Shown piece after piece: positions 2,734 through 22,822 of a stretch of DNA of 64,000 nucleotides (position 1 is the first letter of the stretch; each line of letters starts with the position of its first letter). The notes beneath the pieces were generated by a model, which saw only the letters and a list, made by a program, of their open reading frames with translations, was not told the DNA's origin and made no database searches. The stretch is from Moheibacter lacus (GTDB lineage Bacteria; Bacteroidota; Bacteroidia; Flavobacteriales; Weeksellaceae). Location of the stretch: assembly GCF_014042165.1 (NCBI RefSeq), contig NZ_JACDZE010000001.1, positions 1,510,595 to 1,574,594 of the forward strand, written 5' to 3'. Position numbers and translations under genes: made by a program.

Positions 2734-4190
2734 AATTAAAGGATTTATTACATGGCGTTAAAATAATTGAAACCATAGGTTCCACTGATTTGGAGATTTC
2801 GGCTGTGCAATTTGATTCGAGAAAAATTGAATCCGATTCTCTTTTTGTTGCACAAAGCGGAACACAAGTGGATGGTCATGATTTTATCCAAAAAGCAATT
2901 GAATTAGGCGCTGTAGCAGTCGTTTGTGAAAGAATTCCGGCTGATTTGAATCCAAATATAGCGTATATTTTGGTTGAGAATTCCGCGATCGCACTTGGTT
3001 TCATCGCTTCGAATTTATATGGAAATCCAACGCAGAAATTAAAGCTCATCGGCATTACAGGTACTAATGGAAAGACCACAACGGCAACATTGACTTATAA
3101 TTTGTTGGAGGCTTTAGGTTATCCGACGATTTTGGTTTCGACCATCCGAATTTTAATCCATGGAAAAGAAATTCCTTCTTCCCATACGACGCCTGATATT
3201 TTGACTTTGAACAAAATTTTCAGTGAAGCTGTAAGTGCAGGTTGCGAATTTGCAGTGATGGAAGTGAGCTCGCATGGCATTCATCAAAATAGAATTGCTG
3301 GTTTGCATTTCCAAATGGGTGTTTTTTCCAATATTTCGCATGATCATTTGGATTACCATAAAACCTTTGCCCAATACATCAAAGCAAAAAAGCAATTCTT
3401 CGATCATTTGCCAAAGTCAGCTGATGCATTGACCAATATCGACGATAAAAACGGAATCGTGATGTTGCAAAATTCGGCTGCAAAAAGATATTCGTACGCA
3501 TTAAAAACCGACGCCGATTTCAAAGCCAAAATTCTCGAAAATCAATTTGAAGGAATGTTGCTTTTATTGGATGGGAAAGAATTCTGGACGCCTTTGATCG
3601 GACAATTTAATGCTTACAATTTATTGGCGGTTTATTCCATTGCAAGATTATTGGGATTTGAGCAAGAAGAAATTTTGACACAACTCAGCACTTTGAAAAA
3701 TGTAGACGGACGGTTCCAATCTTTTATAACAGAAAGCGGAATTGTAATCATCGTGGATTATGCACATACACCAGACGCTTTGGAAAATGTATTGAACACC
3801 ATTCAAAATATCCGTACCAGAAACGAAAAGTTAATAACGGTTGTCGGTTGCGGCGGTGATCGCGATAAAACCAAACGACCGGAAATGGCAAGAATTGCAT
3901 CGGCAGAATCAGATTTGGCAATTTTCACCTCTGACAATCCAAGAACGGAAGATCCTGAAATCATTTTAACAGAAATGGAAGCAGGAGTTGAACCACAAAA
4001 TTTCAAAAAAACACTCAAAATAACCGATCGCAAAGAAGCCATCAAAACGGCTTTGAAGTTGGCGGAGAAAAACGATATCCTTTTGATCGCCGGAAAAGGC
4101 CATGAAACCTATCAGGAAATCCAAGGAGTAAAACATCATTTTGATGATATGGAAATCACGAAAGAATTAAGCAATCAACTCAATAAATAA
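2730..4190 (+). CDS. murE: UDP-MurNAc-tripeptide synthetase MurE (meso-diaminopimelate adding)
   Basis: MurE adds the third residue of the stem peptide to UDP-MurNAc-L-Ala-D-Glu in the cytoplasm. The 486-residue protein has the three Mur ligase domains. The ATP loop GTNGKTT is at 111-117, the lysine expected to be carbamylated lies in the AKKQFF stretch near 220, and DNPR is at 402-405. DNPR is the substrate-binding motif of meso-diaminopimelate-type MurE, so the predicted third residue is meso-DAP rather than lysine. This fits the dapF gene found elsewhere in the window. The start shares ATGA with the ftsI stop, and mraY begins 2 nt after its end. Confidence 0.97.
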
Positions 4191-17548: not shown

Positions 17549-18238
17549 TTATTTAGACAAACCCACCAAAAACCGAAACCCTACGCCTCGTATACTTTCG
17601 ATCTGTACCGCATCATCTTCCACCAAATATTTCCTGAGTCGGCTGATGAATACATCCAAACTCCGGCCGGAAAAGAAATCGGATTCTTCCCAAAGATGGT
17701 TCAGCACTTCTTCGCGTTTGATGATCCTGTCCCGGTGTTGATAAAGAAAACTAAGAAGTTGTGCTTCTTTTTCGGTGAGGTTTCGTTCCGACTTTTCGGT
17801 TTTAAGCAACAAATTTTCCGGTTCAAATCGGAATTTACCAAAAGAATAGGTAGTCAATTTGGGCGATTCAACTTTTGACTTGCGTTTCAATATATTTTGA
17901 ATACGAAGGATCAATTCATCCGCATCAAAAGGTTTTGTGATATAATCATCTGCTCCTAGCTTCAATCCGGTTAAAACATCCTCTTTCATCTTTCTGGCAG
18001 TTACAAAAAGAAAAGGCAAATCGGGATGCGACTTTTGGAGTTTTTCTGCCAATGTAAATCCGTCTTCCTGTGGCATCATCACATCGAGAATTAACAAATC
18101 ATATGTATTTTGTTTCAATTCTTCTCGGGCTTCGACGCCATTGAAAACCCGATGCGCTTGAAATTGATTCAAAACCAAATACTGTTGGAGCAAATTCCCC
18201 AAATCCAAATCGTCCTCGACTATCAGAATTTTTATCAT
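17549..18238 (-). CDS. OmpR/PhoB-family response regulator
   Basis: The 229-residue protein has a receiver domain (1-118) with acidic pocket E8-D9-D10, phospho-acceptor Asp52 (LILDVMMP), Thr80 and Lys102. A winged-helix DNA-binding domain (about 128-229) follows, with the family pattern LTEKEAQLLSFL and RSLDVFISRLRKYL. Proteins of this type bind direct repeats spaced 10-11 bp. It lies 78 nt downstream of the histidine kinase on the same strand and is its likely partner. It resembles RprY-type regulators of Bacteroidota in size and layout, but I cannot prove that identity. Possible target boxes lie at 19739-19767. Confidence 0.93.
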   Translation of the reverse strand: MIKILIVEDDLDLGNLLQQYLVLNQFQAHRVFNGVEAREELKQNTYDLLILDVMMPQEDGFTLAEKLQKSHPDLPFLFVTARKMKEDVLTGLKLGADDYITKPFDADELILRIQNILKRKSKVESPKLTTYSFGKFRFEPENLLLKTEKSERNLTEKEAQLLSFLYQHRDRIIKREEVLNHLWEESDFFSGRSLDVFISRLRKYLVEDDAVQIESIRGVGFRFLVGLSK

Positions 18239-18273: not shown

Positions 18274-18311
18274 TTCGTAAATCTAACTTCGTAAATCGTC
18301 TTTCGTAAATC
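18274..18311. repeat. Three 14-bp tandem units with core TTCGTAAATC
   Basis: TTCGTAAATC occurs at 18274, 18288 and 18302, an exact 14-bp period, in the 78-nt gap between the kinase and regulator genes. No function is known; it resembles short dispersed words common between flavobacterial genes. Confidence 0.7.
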
Positions 18312-18316
18312 GTACA

Positions 18317-19687
18317 TCAACTCACCGGAATTTTCAAAATAAAAGTACTTCCTTTTTTCAACGAACTTTGCACCAAAATATTTCCACCCAAACCCTTCAT
18401 GATCTGCTTGCAGAGATACAATCCGAGACCCAAACCTTTTGCATCGTGTCGGTTTCCTTCTGAAACTCTATAAAATTTCTCAAAAATCTTTTCCTGTTCT
18501 GAAGCCGGAATGCCCATTCCCGAATCTTGGATTTCGATGATGTAATCTGAATGGTTTTGAAATCCATTGATGAGAATTTCAGATCCTTTTGGGCTGTATT
18601 TTTCAGCATTTTGCAAAAGATTTTGAAGTACACGACCCAGTTGATACGTATCGGTTTCTAGAAAAAGTTCTTTTGGTTCGATTGCTAAAATGATTTGATG
18701 GTTTTCCGAATGATAATCAGCCAAAAATTCGTTTAGAAATTGAACGATTTCCACTTTTTTTAGCTGAATTTTTTGTTCATCTACGGAACTTTCCAAAACC
18801 CTGTCCACGATGTTCTGGATCCGATTATTTTGTCGCTCCATGGATTGGATCATCTGGTCCAAAATTTCAGGATTCTCGATGACTTCTTTTTTTTGTAAGG
18901 ATTGGATAATCAAGTTCAATGAAGCGAGTGGTGTTTTTAGTTCATGTGTAATATTATTGGCAAAATCGGTTTTGATTTCTGCAATTTTCTTTTGTTTGAT
19001 GAAAGACCGAAAAATATGGTAAAAGAGATAGATCACTGCCAATATCAAACAAAATGCACCGATGAGCATCCATTTCATTTTATTCCAAATTTTCTGCTGG
19101 AAATTGGAAATATCCATGTTCACGGTTGATGAATGTTTGTAAAAAAAATCAGTTGAAAGGTTTTCATCTTCCAAATCCAAATCTTCAGATGTTTGGGTAA
19201 TTCCGCTGCTGAGGTGGAAACCATTTCCATCAAACCTTTGTCCGATGTAAACCAGCGGAGGATCGACCAAACGAAGGATGGTATCCTGGGCGAATTCTGT
19301 GATGAAAACGATTTGTTTCAATTGAAATTTGAGTTGGACTTCCTTTAAAATAGGATAATCTTTCCATTGACTTTTCAAATATTTTTGGCTTAAATTACGG
19401 ATAGAATCCGACAAACTTTGCGCTTGAAGGTGAAACTGGATTTCATTGATCGAATCTTGGGCTTTTAACCAAGCAATTTTTTTAATTTCTGATACAAATT
19501 GATCTTCCAATGAATCCAATTCTGGTGATTCGATGACGGGTGCAATTTCTTTTTTAACTTCATTGACATAGGTTTCTGAAATCAATTGGTAGGTGTTTTG
19601 AATCAAATAATATTGAATTGAAATCAAGCCTCCGAGGATCACCAAGCAGGAAATGATCAGGATTTTGATTTGGTTTTTTGGCTTCAT
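18317..19687 (-). CDS. Membrane sensor histidine kinase
   Basis: This 456-residue kinase has two membrane helices (about 8-30 and 206-226) around a periplasmic sensor of about 175 residues that I do not recognise. HisKA follows, with the phospho-acceptor His248 in NNITHELKTPLASL. The HATPase domain shows an N-box (QNLLQNAEKYS), G1 (DSGMGIP), an F-box and G2 (KGLGLGLYLCK). No HAMP domain is evident. It precedes the OmpR-type regulator and is divergent from a small exported protein. A TATTTTTG promoter element lies at 19695-19702, very close to the start, so the mRNA leader may be very short. Confidence 0.93.
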   Translation of the reverse strand: MKPKNQIKILIISCLVILGGLISIQYYLIQNTYQLISETYVNEVKKEIAPVIESPELDSLEDQFVSEIKKIAWLKAQDSINEIQFHLQAQSLSDSIRNLSQKYLKSQWKDYPILKEVQLKFQLKQIVFITEFAQDTILRLVDPPLVYIGQRFDGNGFHLSSGITQTSEDLDLEDENLSTDFFYKHSSTVNMDISNFQQKIWNKMKWMLIGAFCLILAVIYLFYHIFRSFIKQKKIAEIKTDFANNITHELKTPLASLNLIIQSLQKKEVIENPEILDQMIQSMERQNNRIQNIVDRVLESSVDEQKIQLKKVEIVQFLNEFLADYHSENHQIILAIEPKELFLETDTYQLGRVLQNLLQNAEKYSPKGSEILINGFQNHSDYIIEIQDSGMGIPASEQEKIFEKFYRVSEGNRHDAKGLGLGLYLCKQIMKGLGGNILVQSSLKKGSTFILKIPVS

Positions 19688-19694
19688 GGCTTCA

Positions 19695-19767
19695 CAAAAA
19701 TACTCAAGTCAAATTATATTTAAACTTGAATTTCGTACATTAACCCTTCATTAACCTTGGATTAACC
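19695..19767. promoter_or_regulatory. Divergent control region with three ATTAACC boxes spaced 11 bp
   Basis: The region between the kinase gene (minus) and the exported-protein gene (plus) holds ATTAACC at 19739, 19750 and 19761, exactly one helical turn apart, the arrangement bound by OmpR/PhoB-type regulators. A dyad TCAAGT/ACTTGA (19704-19709 and 19724-19729) and a minus-strand TATTTTTG element (19695-19702) lie next to it. Autoregulation by the neighbouring pair is an inference. Confidence 0.5.
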
Positions 19768-19821
19768 ATTTTATCTTTTTGATTTTCTGAATTTTGTAGA
19801 AAGAATTTAAAACTATAGATC

Positions 19822-20308: not shown

Positions 20309-22822
20309 ATGTCTTTTATCATACGAATCATAGTTTTTATTATATCATTATTTATCGGTTTTTATGTACAAGGTCAGGAGAACGATACCATTTCGAGAAA
20401 GAAAATTCATCTGGTTAAGGTATCGGAATCTCCTAAAATAGATGGAGTTTTAGATGACGTTGTTTGGCAAAATGCACCGATTGCGACCGACTTTGTTGAG
20501 CGACAACCCAACAACGGTAAACCGATTCCTGATAGTTTAAGGACTGAAGTAAAAGTCGTTTATGATGACCGTGGAATTTATTTCGGTGCGTTTATGGCTG
20601 ATCCTGAGCCAAATAAGATCTTGAAAGAATTGACCGAACGAGATGGAATTGGCAATGATGATTTCTTTTTTGTTTTGCTAAATGGTTACAATGACCGCCA
20701 ACAGAGTTTACAATTCATCGTGACAGCAGCTGGTGTTCAATATGACGCCAAAATGACCAATGGAAATGAGGACAGCTCCTGGAACGGCGTTTGGTACAGC
20801 GATGTGCAAATCACTTCAGAGGGCTGGATCGCCGAAATATTTATTCCTTATTCGGAAATCCGTTTTCCGGATGGAGATCAGCAAATCTGGGGATTGCAGA
20901 TGGAACGCGAATTCAGACGCGACCGGAAAAGATTTAGCTGGAATTTTGTGGACAATACAAAAGGTGCATTTTCCATTTACGATGGCGAAATTCATGGCAT
21001 TGAAAACATCGATCCGCCGACTCGGCTTTCATTTCAACCTTATTTGTCGGGTTATTTGAACAATTATGATGGCGAATCAGAATTTGTGTTCAACGGCGGA
21101 ATGGATCTGAAATATGGGATCAATGATGCTTTTACGCTTGACATGATTTTGATTCCCGATTTCGGTCAAACCAAATTTGATCCGACGGTTTTGAATCTCA
21201 CTGCTTTTGAAGTGCAATATGCAGAACAACGTCCATTTTTTACAGAAGGAACAGAATTGTTCAACAAAGGAAATCTTTTTTATTCGCGTAGAGTCGGTGG
21301 TTTTCCAAGTTTGTATCCGGAATTGGCAGAGGATGAGGTGGTTTTAGAATTTCCCGCAAGAGTAGATTTGATCAATGCGATGAAAATTTCAGGTCGCACC
21401 AAAAAGAATTTGGGGATCGGATTTTTTAATGGATTGACAGAAAGAACGTATGCAAAAGTAAAAAATGAATCAACGTTGGAAGAGCGAAAAGAATTGGTAG
21501 AACCCTTGACCAATTACAATGTTCTCGTGCTGGACCAACGGTTTGGAGAAAATAATTCGGTTTCATTTGTCAACACCAACACTTTTCGGGAAGGAAATCA
21601 CCGCGATGCCAACGTTTCGGGTTTGTATTATAATTTGACCAACAAAAAAAATACTTGGAATTATTGGGGAGACGTCGAGGCCAGTTGGGTGAATCTTGAG
21701 GATGATTTATGGGGTTTTGAAGCCACTTCCGGTCTTGCCAAAATCAGTGGAAAACACCGCTATCAAGCGAGTTTTTTCTTGAGAACAAAAGATTATAACA
21801 TCGATGATTTGGGGTATACAGGTCAGACGAATTACATCAATTATTTTGGGTATTATGGTTATCGGTATTTGCAACCCAAAGGGAATTTCAACAATTTGAA
21901 TTTGAATTTCAATCTGAATTTGAGCCGACGTTTGGATCCTGATTTGTACAATTATTTCATGTTCAATTTCAATTCGAGTTTCACGACCAAATCCTTTTTC
22001 ACCTTTGGTGGCGGATTTGAAACCACGCCATTTGGGACTTATGATATTTATGAACCGAGAACGGAAAATCGGCATTTAAAAATTCCGGATTATTATGATA
22101 CTTGGGCTTGGATTTCTACGGATTATCGAAAGAAACTGGCGCTGGATGCGACGTTGGATTGGTACAAATATGCAGAACGCGGCATGGGAAGATTGATCAT
22201 CAATTTTTCACCTCGCTTCAGAGTTTCAGACAAATGGAAATTGTACCTAAATACCCAAACCACGCTTTCTGACAAAGAATATGGATTTGTCAACAAAGAT
22301 GCAAACGAAATTTATTTCGGGAAACGCGATAGAAATACAGTAGAAACTTCGCTCGAATCCCAATACATTTTCAACGAAAAAATGGCGCTGAACCTCGCTT
22401 TCCGTCATTATTTTACCGACGTAACTTATGAAGAATTCTATACACTGGAAGAAAACGGAGATTTGACTGAAACAACTGCTTATTCCAATAATCATGATGC
22501 GACCTATAACAGTTGGAACATCGATTTGCGATTCAGTTGGTGGTTTGCGCCGGGAAGTCAGTTGAGCTTGCTGTATAGAAACGCAATTGAAGGTTATGAT
22601 GAGGTTTCAGAAACCAGTTTCCGGGACAATTTTGATTATTTGTTTGACCAACCGCAATTGAATAGTTTTTCCATCCGAATTTCCTATTTCCTCGATTATA
22701 ATCGAATGAAAAATTGGTTCAAAAAGAAACCGGAGATAGAGGAAACGGCTCGCCGAAACGCATATCACGAAAGAAAGAGTTATGCGTATAAACGGAATTC
22801 GACTAACTTTGGAATGATGTAA
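20309..22822 (+). CDS. DUF5916 outer-membrane-type protein with CBM9-like N-terminal domain
   Basis: This 837-residue exported protein begins with a signal peptide (about 1-22, ending YVQGQ). Residues about 30-215 form a CBM9-like beta-sandwich (KIDGVLDDVVW, WIAEIFIPYSEIRFP), and the remainder is the DUF5916 region, with many alternating aromatic/polar strands that look like an outer-membrane barrel. Such proteins are widespread in Bacteroidota and their function is unknown; the CBM9-like part suggests binding of a carbohydrate or other ligand. It lies 76 nt after the small exported protein and may be cotranscribed or have its own weak promoter. Confidence 0.85.
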   Translation: MSFIIRIIVFIISLFIGFYVQGQENDTISRKKIHLVKVSESPKIDGVLDDVVWQNAPIATDFVERQPNNGKPIPDSLRTEVKVVYDDRGIYFGAFMADPEPNKILKELTERDGIGNDDFFFVLLNGYNDRQQSLQFIVTAAGVQYDAKMTNGNEDSSWNGVWYSDVQITSEGWIAEIFIPYSEIRFPDGDQQIWGLQMEREFRRDRKRFSWNFVDNTKGAFSIYDGEIHGIENIDPPTRLSFQPYLSGYLNNYDGESEFVFNGGMDLKYGINDAFTLDMILIPDFGQTKFDPTVLNLTAFEVQYAEQRPFFTEGTELFNKGNLFYSRRVGGFPSLYPELAEDEVVLEFPARVDLINAMKISGRTKKNLGIGFFNGLTERTYAKVKNESTLEERKELVEPLTNYNVLVLDQRFGENNSVSFVNTNTFREGNHRDANVSGLYYNLTNKKNTWNYWGDVEASWVNLEDDLWGFEATSGLAKISGKHRYQASFFLRTKDYNIDDLGYTGQTNYINYFGYYGYRYLQPKGNFNNLNLNFNLNLSRRLDPDLYNYFMFNFNSSFTTKSFFTFGGGFETTPFGTYDIYEPRTENRHLKIPDYYDTWAWISTDYRKKLALDATLDWYKYAERGMGRLIINFSPRFRVSDKWKLYLNTQTTLSDKEYGFVNKDANEIYFGKRDRNTVETSLESQYIFNEKMALNLAFRHYFTDVTYEEFYTLEENGDLTETTAYSNNHDATYNSWNIDLRFSWWFAPGSQLSLLYRNAIEGYDEVSETSFRDNFDYLFDQPQLNSFSIRISYFLDYNRMKNWFKKKPEIEETARRNAYHERKSYAYKRNSTNFGMM

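Follow-up and report, generated by a model that had tools for sequence, protein, structure and literature searches.

The 134-bp gap between the start of a sensor histidine kinase gene (19687, − strand) and the start of a gene for a small exported protein (19822, + strand; hereafter SP) contains three ATTAACC boxes. An initial annotation of this DNA read them as a binding site for the OmpR/PhoB-type regulator encoded nearby, which raises the questions of whether the boxes are a genuine control element, which regulator binds them, and which of the two divergent transcription units they serve. Positions refer to the window, the whole stretch of 64,000 nucleotides that was analysed.

An array of three boxes between divergent genes

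The regulator encoded two genes away does belong to the OmpR/PhoB family, as annotated, with a receiver domain at 99.5 bits and a Trans_reg_C domain at 68.3 bits, both above the Pfam cut-offs. RprY is the closest named regulator family by NCBIfam profile score. Equivalence to RprY was rejected, as the regulator reaches 219.9 bits against the cut-off of 370 for NF051850; the regulators of six relatives (189.2–237.4 bits, NCBIfam) likewise fall below 370. On the other side of the gap, SP is followed by a DUF5916 gene with which it is probably co-transcribed. This gene also lies behind SP in G009, G079 and Galbibacter (L216), and in G038 with two genes between.

Table 1 Coordinates of the genes, boxes and promoter elements at the locus
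Feature	Sequence	Position	Strand	Remarks
Response regulator gene, OmpR/PhoB type, RprY-like		17549..18238	−	Receiver and winged-helix domains; Pfam Response_reg and Trans_reg_C above cut-off
Sensor histidine kinase gene		18317..19687	−	In one operon with the regulator gene, which lies downstream; HisKA and HATPase_c domains above cut-off
Putative kinase promoter −7 element	TATTTTTG	19695..19702	−	Plus strand reads CAAAAATA
Box 1	ATTAACC	19739–19745	+	Exact match; conserved
Box 2	ATTAACC	19750–19756	+	Exact match; conserved
Box 3	ATTAACC	19761–19767	+	Exact match; conserved; at the expected place of the SP promoter −33 element
Putative SP promoter −7 element	GAATTTTG	19789..19796	+	TTTG at 19793; conserved distance
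SP, small exported protein, 136 aa		19822..20232	+	Likely main target; homologues in family
DUF5916 outer-membrane-type protein, CBM9-like domain		20309..22822	+	Pfam

The three boxes are exact copies at 11-bp steps, as first described (19739, 19750 and 19761). Single ATTAACC boxes occur in the window at chance level (10, against a mean of 11.0 in shuffles). The array had been called improbable by chance, and the numbers agree: arrays of three 7-mer copies at a constant spacing of 8–14 bp were absent from 20 of 20 Markov-shuffled windows, and by a product estimate from base composition an array of three ATTAACC at 11-bp steps is expected about 1e-7 times in 64 kb and 4e-6 times in the genome. 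A genome scan for repeated boxes, proposed with the initial annotation and run here with the TTAACC triplet, returned this locus as the unique exact site in the whole 2.77-Mb genome. Allowing three mismatches added 4 further places, against 31 for the reversed control pattern.

The sole other three-copy 7-mer array of 8–14 bp spacing in the window is a 14-bp tandem from 18274. It occupies the short intergenic gap between the regulator and kinase genes (18274–18316), where TTCGTAAATC-like letters stand in three tandem copies at 14-bp steps.

Conservation beside the kinase–regulator pair

We searched a family set of 197 genomes with a pattern of three TTAAC in which a T stands third after each of the first two boxes. 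The pattern is present in 47 of the 197 genomes (52 places), and its reversed control in 2. Two overlapping repeat runs (G103:C11:240058 and 240069) were dropped, leaving 50 places for analysis. Assigned by hand, these comprise 29 triplets directly upstream of a kinase homologue, 11 before an SP homologue that does not adjoin such a kinase, and 10 others.

Within the window genus the boxes go with the pair, as kinase and SP occur together in 4 of 6 genomes and all 4 carry the boxes, one letter of box 1 being changed in G038; the genomes lacking the pair, G055 and G069 (76% completeness), lack the triplet. Loss of the boxes from relatives that have the pair had been named as the result that would speak against an operator. 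The comparison went the other way: a regulator match at E 1e-60 occurs in 21 family genomes, and 19 of these have the triplet at the pair. They comprise 17 genomes in whose fetched locus 17 or more of the 18 box letters agree, the window's own genome, and G079, where kinase and regulator are on separate contigs and the triplet adjoins the kinase. In G082 the array at the pair is weak (15 of 18 box letters), and G062 (L282:3951-4400) has no triplet at the pair despite a nearly identical regulator (L080 compared with L078). By eye, the G062 DNA where the triplet would be contains an integrase-like gene, perhaps an insertion.

A broader scan of named genomes with the triplet pattern, the promoter not being required, gave at least 117 loci, a list that may lack records close to the genome studied here. 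The loci listed divide into 67 with a kinase, 42 without, and 8 at contig edges that were counted separately; at the 67, the triplet has a kinase homologue immediately to its left. The genera among the listed matches include Flavobacterium, Chryseobacterium, Epilithonimonas, Empedobacter, Myroides, Pedobacter, Riemerella and Galbibacter, together with metagenome-assembled genomes (MAGs) of Bacteroidales and Saprospiraceae. The right-hand gene varies between the loci listed. It encodes a protein of ~660–830 aa at many Flavobacteriales loci (three scanned are OMP_b-brl_3 barrels), an exported-looking protein of 217–247 aa in Bacteroidales-type MAGs (0 of 2 scanned reach a Pfam cut-off), a DUF6624 protein in Pedobacter duraquae (L236), and SP in the window genus and Galbibacter. 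In two Lachnospiraceae records (L167:2209-2235 and L182:7200-7226) an almost identical triplet stands towards the 3′ end of a kinase gene, where it could be chance or coding sequence.

The array keeps fixed or quantised distances to two probable promoters

Bacteroidota promoters are described, in passages of PMC2483708 and PMC7366714, as having a −7 element TAnnTTTG and a TTTG near −33. The end of box 3 is 21 bp from the octamer GAATTTTG, which puts this box at the place expected for a −33 element. If the first T of box 1 is taken as zero, a TTTG starts exactly at +53 in 27 of the 29 family kinase loci. At the 11 family SP loci this position reads TTTG in 3, TTTA in 7 and neither in 1, and at the 10 family loci with neither neighbour TTTG is found in 0. 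Among the matches listed in the broader scan, the 67 kinase loci have TTTG at +53 in 61 and TTTA in 3, and elsewhere between offsets 44 and 68 none of them has a TTTG; of the 42 non-kinase loci off contig edges, 6 have TTTG at +53 and 4 have TTTA, SP or barrel genes being present at several of them. The difference between 61 of 67 and 6 of 42 (matches listed) corresponds to a Fisher p of 2e-16, a value that is too small since the sequences are related and kinship is uncorrected.

A strict form of the pattern, which asks for three exact TTAAC and for TTTG at the proper distance, matches 4 of 395 genomes class-wide, with 0 for the control, and an order-wide shift-by-one control with the promoter gap one base shorter matches 0 of 395. 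The four are the genome studied here, G213 of the same order, G634 and G638; the last two have unlike spacers, look like chance and were not accepted as true sites. The strict form is patchy across the class, because so few genomes match and two of the matches resemble chance.

In relatives the distance between boxes and promoter is preserved to the base, which makes it very probable that the boxes are a genuine control switch. A functionless array, produced by chance or repeat expansion, would fit the chance-level frequency of single boxes and the repeat runs among triplets elsewhere (the two overlapping places in G103). It is scarcely credible given the minute expectation per window, the conservation at orthologous places and the fixed promoter distance, and the comparison of relatives contradicts it.

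The kinase side has a geometry of its own. At all 29 family kinase loci a minus-strand TAnnTTTG is found, its plus-strand image starting at −34 (21 loci), −35 (5) or −45 (3) relative to box 1. Among the matches listed in the broader scan, the kinase-side −7 elements of the 67 kinase loci form two distance classes, −33 to −36 (34 loci) and −44 to −47 (23 loci); 10 loci belong to neither class, and no element falls between the two. These classes, which were defined after inspection, are 11 bp apart, equal to one box step. This supports autoregulation; activity in the PhoP system, according to passages of PMC3335776, likewise depends on helical phase.

The window genus belongs to the −45 class. 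The initial annotation had pointed to two further motifs beside the array, and the four close loci (L133, L134, L294 and L140) separate them: the CAAAAATA box at 19695–19702 stands, its minus-strand TAnnTTTG being found at an unchanged distance in all 4, whereas the dyad TCAAGT (19704)/ACTTGA (19724), though present in the window, is absent from the same place in 4 of 4 (three congeners and G029) and was discarded as part of the operator.

Together with the conservation beside the pair, these distances make it likely that the adjacent OmpR/PhoB-type regulator uses the three boxes as its operator, in a position suited to activating SP and to adjusting expression of the kinase–regulator operon. 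Regulator molecules would sit head to tail on the ATTAACC boxes, one helical turn apart. Because box 3 ends 21 bp before GAATTTTG, bound regulator may replace the −33 element and so activate; the fixed spacing suggests that it would recruit RNA polymerase to SP and probably to the DUF5916 gene. Box 1 lies upstream of the opposite-strand kinase promoter at a helically quantised distance, and the same operator would also tune the kinase–regulator operon. The initial annotation's suggestion of autoregulation, with SP as a possible further target, gains support from distances to the two divergent promoters that are fixed or quantised.

The operator could instead repress SP or the kinase operon, as the boxes are close to both promoters and a protein bound at the −33 region could also block polymerase. 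Base-exact spacing that overlaps the −33 place is an activator's requirement, as for PhoP boxes in passages of PMC3335776; the argument is not decisive, and repression appears unlikely.

Candidate regulators for the boxes

Operator-linked regulators cluster on the tree, with 4 label changes against a shuffled mean of 13.2. A single clade is rejected (p-AU 1.8e-49) if two unlabelled rows inside the group count as outsiders, and is not rejected without these two rows (p-AU 0.317). When 7 Bacteroidales rows and L193 are set aside, the remaining 52 rows form one side of a branch with support 56/38. One origin of all operator-linked regulators is neither shown nor excluded by the tree.

The recognition helix is nearly constant in the operator-linked regulators, around RS(L/M)DV(F/Y). 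GRSLDVF is also found in three close paralogues of the genus (G000, G009 and G079), and a more distant paralogue group reads RSMDVY. Because these letters are common to the paralogue, sequence alone cannot name the binding regulator.

The close paralogous pair of the genus has boxes as well. Its loci (L292:4492-4562, which is G000:C8, L293 and L089) carry TTAAC boxes at 0, 11 and 32, and in 3 of 3 the distance from the first base of the last box to the TTTG of TAnnTTTG is 31 bases, as it is from box 3 here (22 to 53). No plus-strand gene of at least 90 aa starts close behind the paralogue boxes in L292 or L293. The operator grammar seems to belong to a wider group of regulators, because the paralogous pair keeps the 31-base distance from last box to TTTG with other boxes; specificity would then come from spacer letters and box steps.

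Another regulator might therefore bind the ATTAACC boxes, for example the closest paralogue in the same genome (C8:251922), with the neighbouring pair as one of its targets. The recognition helix of that paralogue is almost identical, and its own promoter also carries TTAAC boxes. Its boxes differ in spacer letters and in steps (0, 11, 32), and the ATTAACC triplet adjoins one type of kinase–regulator pair in the family and beyond, so that binding by another regulator is decidedly improbable and the neighbouring regulator is the most likely binder.

The small exported protein and other candidate targets

Homologues of SP occur in 18 of the 197 family genomes, in three kinds of arrangement. SP is divergent from the pair in the window genus, in Galbibacter and in G029 (a fragment at a contig end, from the nearest genus with the triplet); it lies away from the pair with its own triplet in Empedobacter and the Epilithonimonas group; and it stands directly behind the regulator in Flavobacterium (L159, L180, L184, L191 and L238). 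SP is likely a functional partner of the kinase–regulator system, because these three kinds of linkage lead to the same system. In Empedobacter tilapiae (L203:478-1425) an upstream neighbour of SP is a 315-aa protein with three copies of the SP domain; this record, with its three repeats, was left out of the alignment used for folding SP.

SP has no Pfam or NCBIfam family at E 0.001. A known Pfam family was rejected, as the weak matches of 13 homologues are scattered and mutually inconsistent. PepSY was found neither in Pfam at 0.001 nor among the 25 of 34 families listed for 13 members at E up to 5. The predicted model has a confident b-b-a-b-b-b-b-a core at residues 32–120. It has no clear match among solved structures: the best Foldseek E is 0.065 and the best VIA-align Z is 7.9, within the background stated by the tool. 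By analogy with DbfQ and CpxP, discussed below, SP may be a periplasmic modulator that tunes the kinase, a role we rate a little short of an even chance.

Further targets were sought with a two-box pattern at the promoter distance. This matches one other place in the same genome, C8:222600, which is also found in G079, and G055, without the pair, also has one match. C8:222600 overlaps the end of a sigma-factor-like reading frame and was set aside as coding sequence or chance. In five genomes of genus g20 (L092, L094, L096, L098 and L101; near locus position 4001 once oriented) a related triplet, TTAACCCTCCTTTAACCGTTCCTTAAC, lies upstream of an exported protein on the minus strand (298 aa in four, a 156-aa frame in L096). 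It has no kinase and no TTTG at +53, and is perhaps a target read in the other direction.

These strands can be joined in one broader reading, which is tentative and, as a whole, rather doubtful. Many OmpR-type systems of Bacteroidota would share the TTAAC/11-bp grammar, with the last box 31 bases before TTTG. Spacers and steps would separate paralogues with near-identical helices, the operator would be phase-locked to two divergent promoters, and the exported partner would be swapped by lineage (an outer-membrane barrel, a 220–250 aa exported protein or SP), SP being a new family of periplasmic kinase modulators.

Comparison with known systems

The layout around SP has a counterpart in Escherichia coli, where the small periplasmic protein CpxP is encoded divergently from the CpxRA regulator and kinase genes, is activated by the regulator and feeds back on the kinase. 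CpxP and SP are similar in layout, with no sequence relation found, and the likeness serves as a lead only. In Vibrio cholerae DbfQRS, passages of PMC12714742 describe a small exported protein of ~135 aa that adjoins a kinase–regulator pair, sometimes on opposite strands, and binds the sensory domain of the kinase. DbfQ is a PepSY protein in that account; SP has no PepSY match among the families listed. Porphyromonas gingivalis HaeRS, as described in passages of PMC3764172, is a two-component pair (PG0719–PG0720) beside the lipoprotein gene PG0717, whose regulator bound its own promoter and transport-gene promoters in gel shifts. The likeness lies in these described features, and those passages give no motif.

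RprXY is the nearest named family of Bacteroidota, yet the seven regulators scanned here score 189–237 bits, below its cut-off of 370. A term search of PMC3646045 and PMC6032018 returned no RprY operator motif in the text covered. A printed operator motif for this regulator group was likewise not found in open-licence full text, outside which most subscription papers lie.

As an element, the array has the hallmarks of OmpR/PhoB-type operators: tandem direct repeats, 10–11 bp steps and a fixed place before a promoter. Its closest likeness is the Salmonella PhoP box, given in passages of PMC3335776 as hexamer direct repeats 11 bp apart, (T/G)GTTTA-N5-(T/G)GTTTA, with activation that depends on helical phase to the promoter. 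The complement of the array here reads GGTTAA-N5-GGTTAA, with the same 11-bp step. In that account the PhoP box has two boxes, a sigma-70 −10 element and other letters, whereas this locus has three boxes and a Bacteroidota −7 element; also unlike PhoP as described there, it has divergent promoters on both sides and one main site per genome.

The class of mechanism is thus already known; the novelty lies in the element itself, with its width and strict geometry. If a motif can be tied to its promoter by a rule exact to the base, targets of these systems could be predicted from sequence in Bacteroidota, a phylum with its own promoter type. The locus is also a test case for target discrimination between two paralogous regulators whose recognition helices are almost identical.
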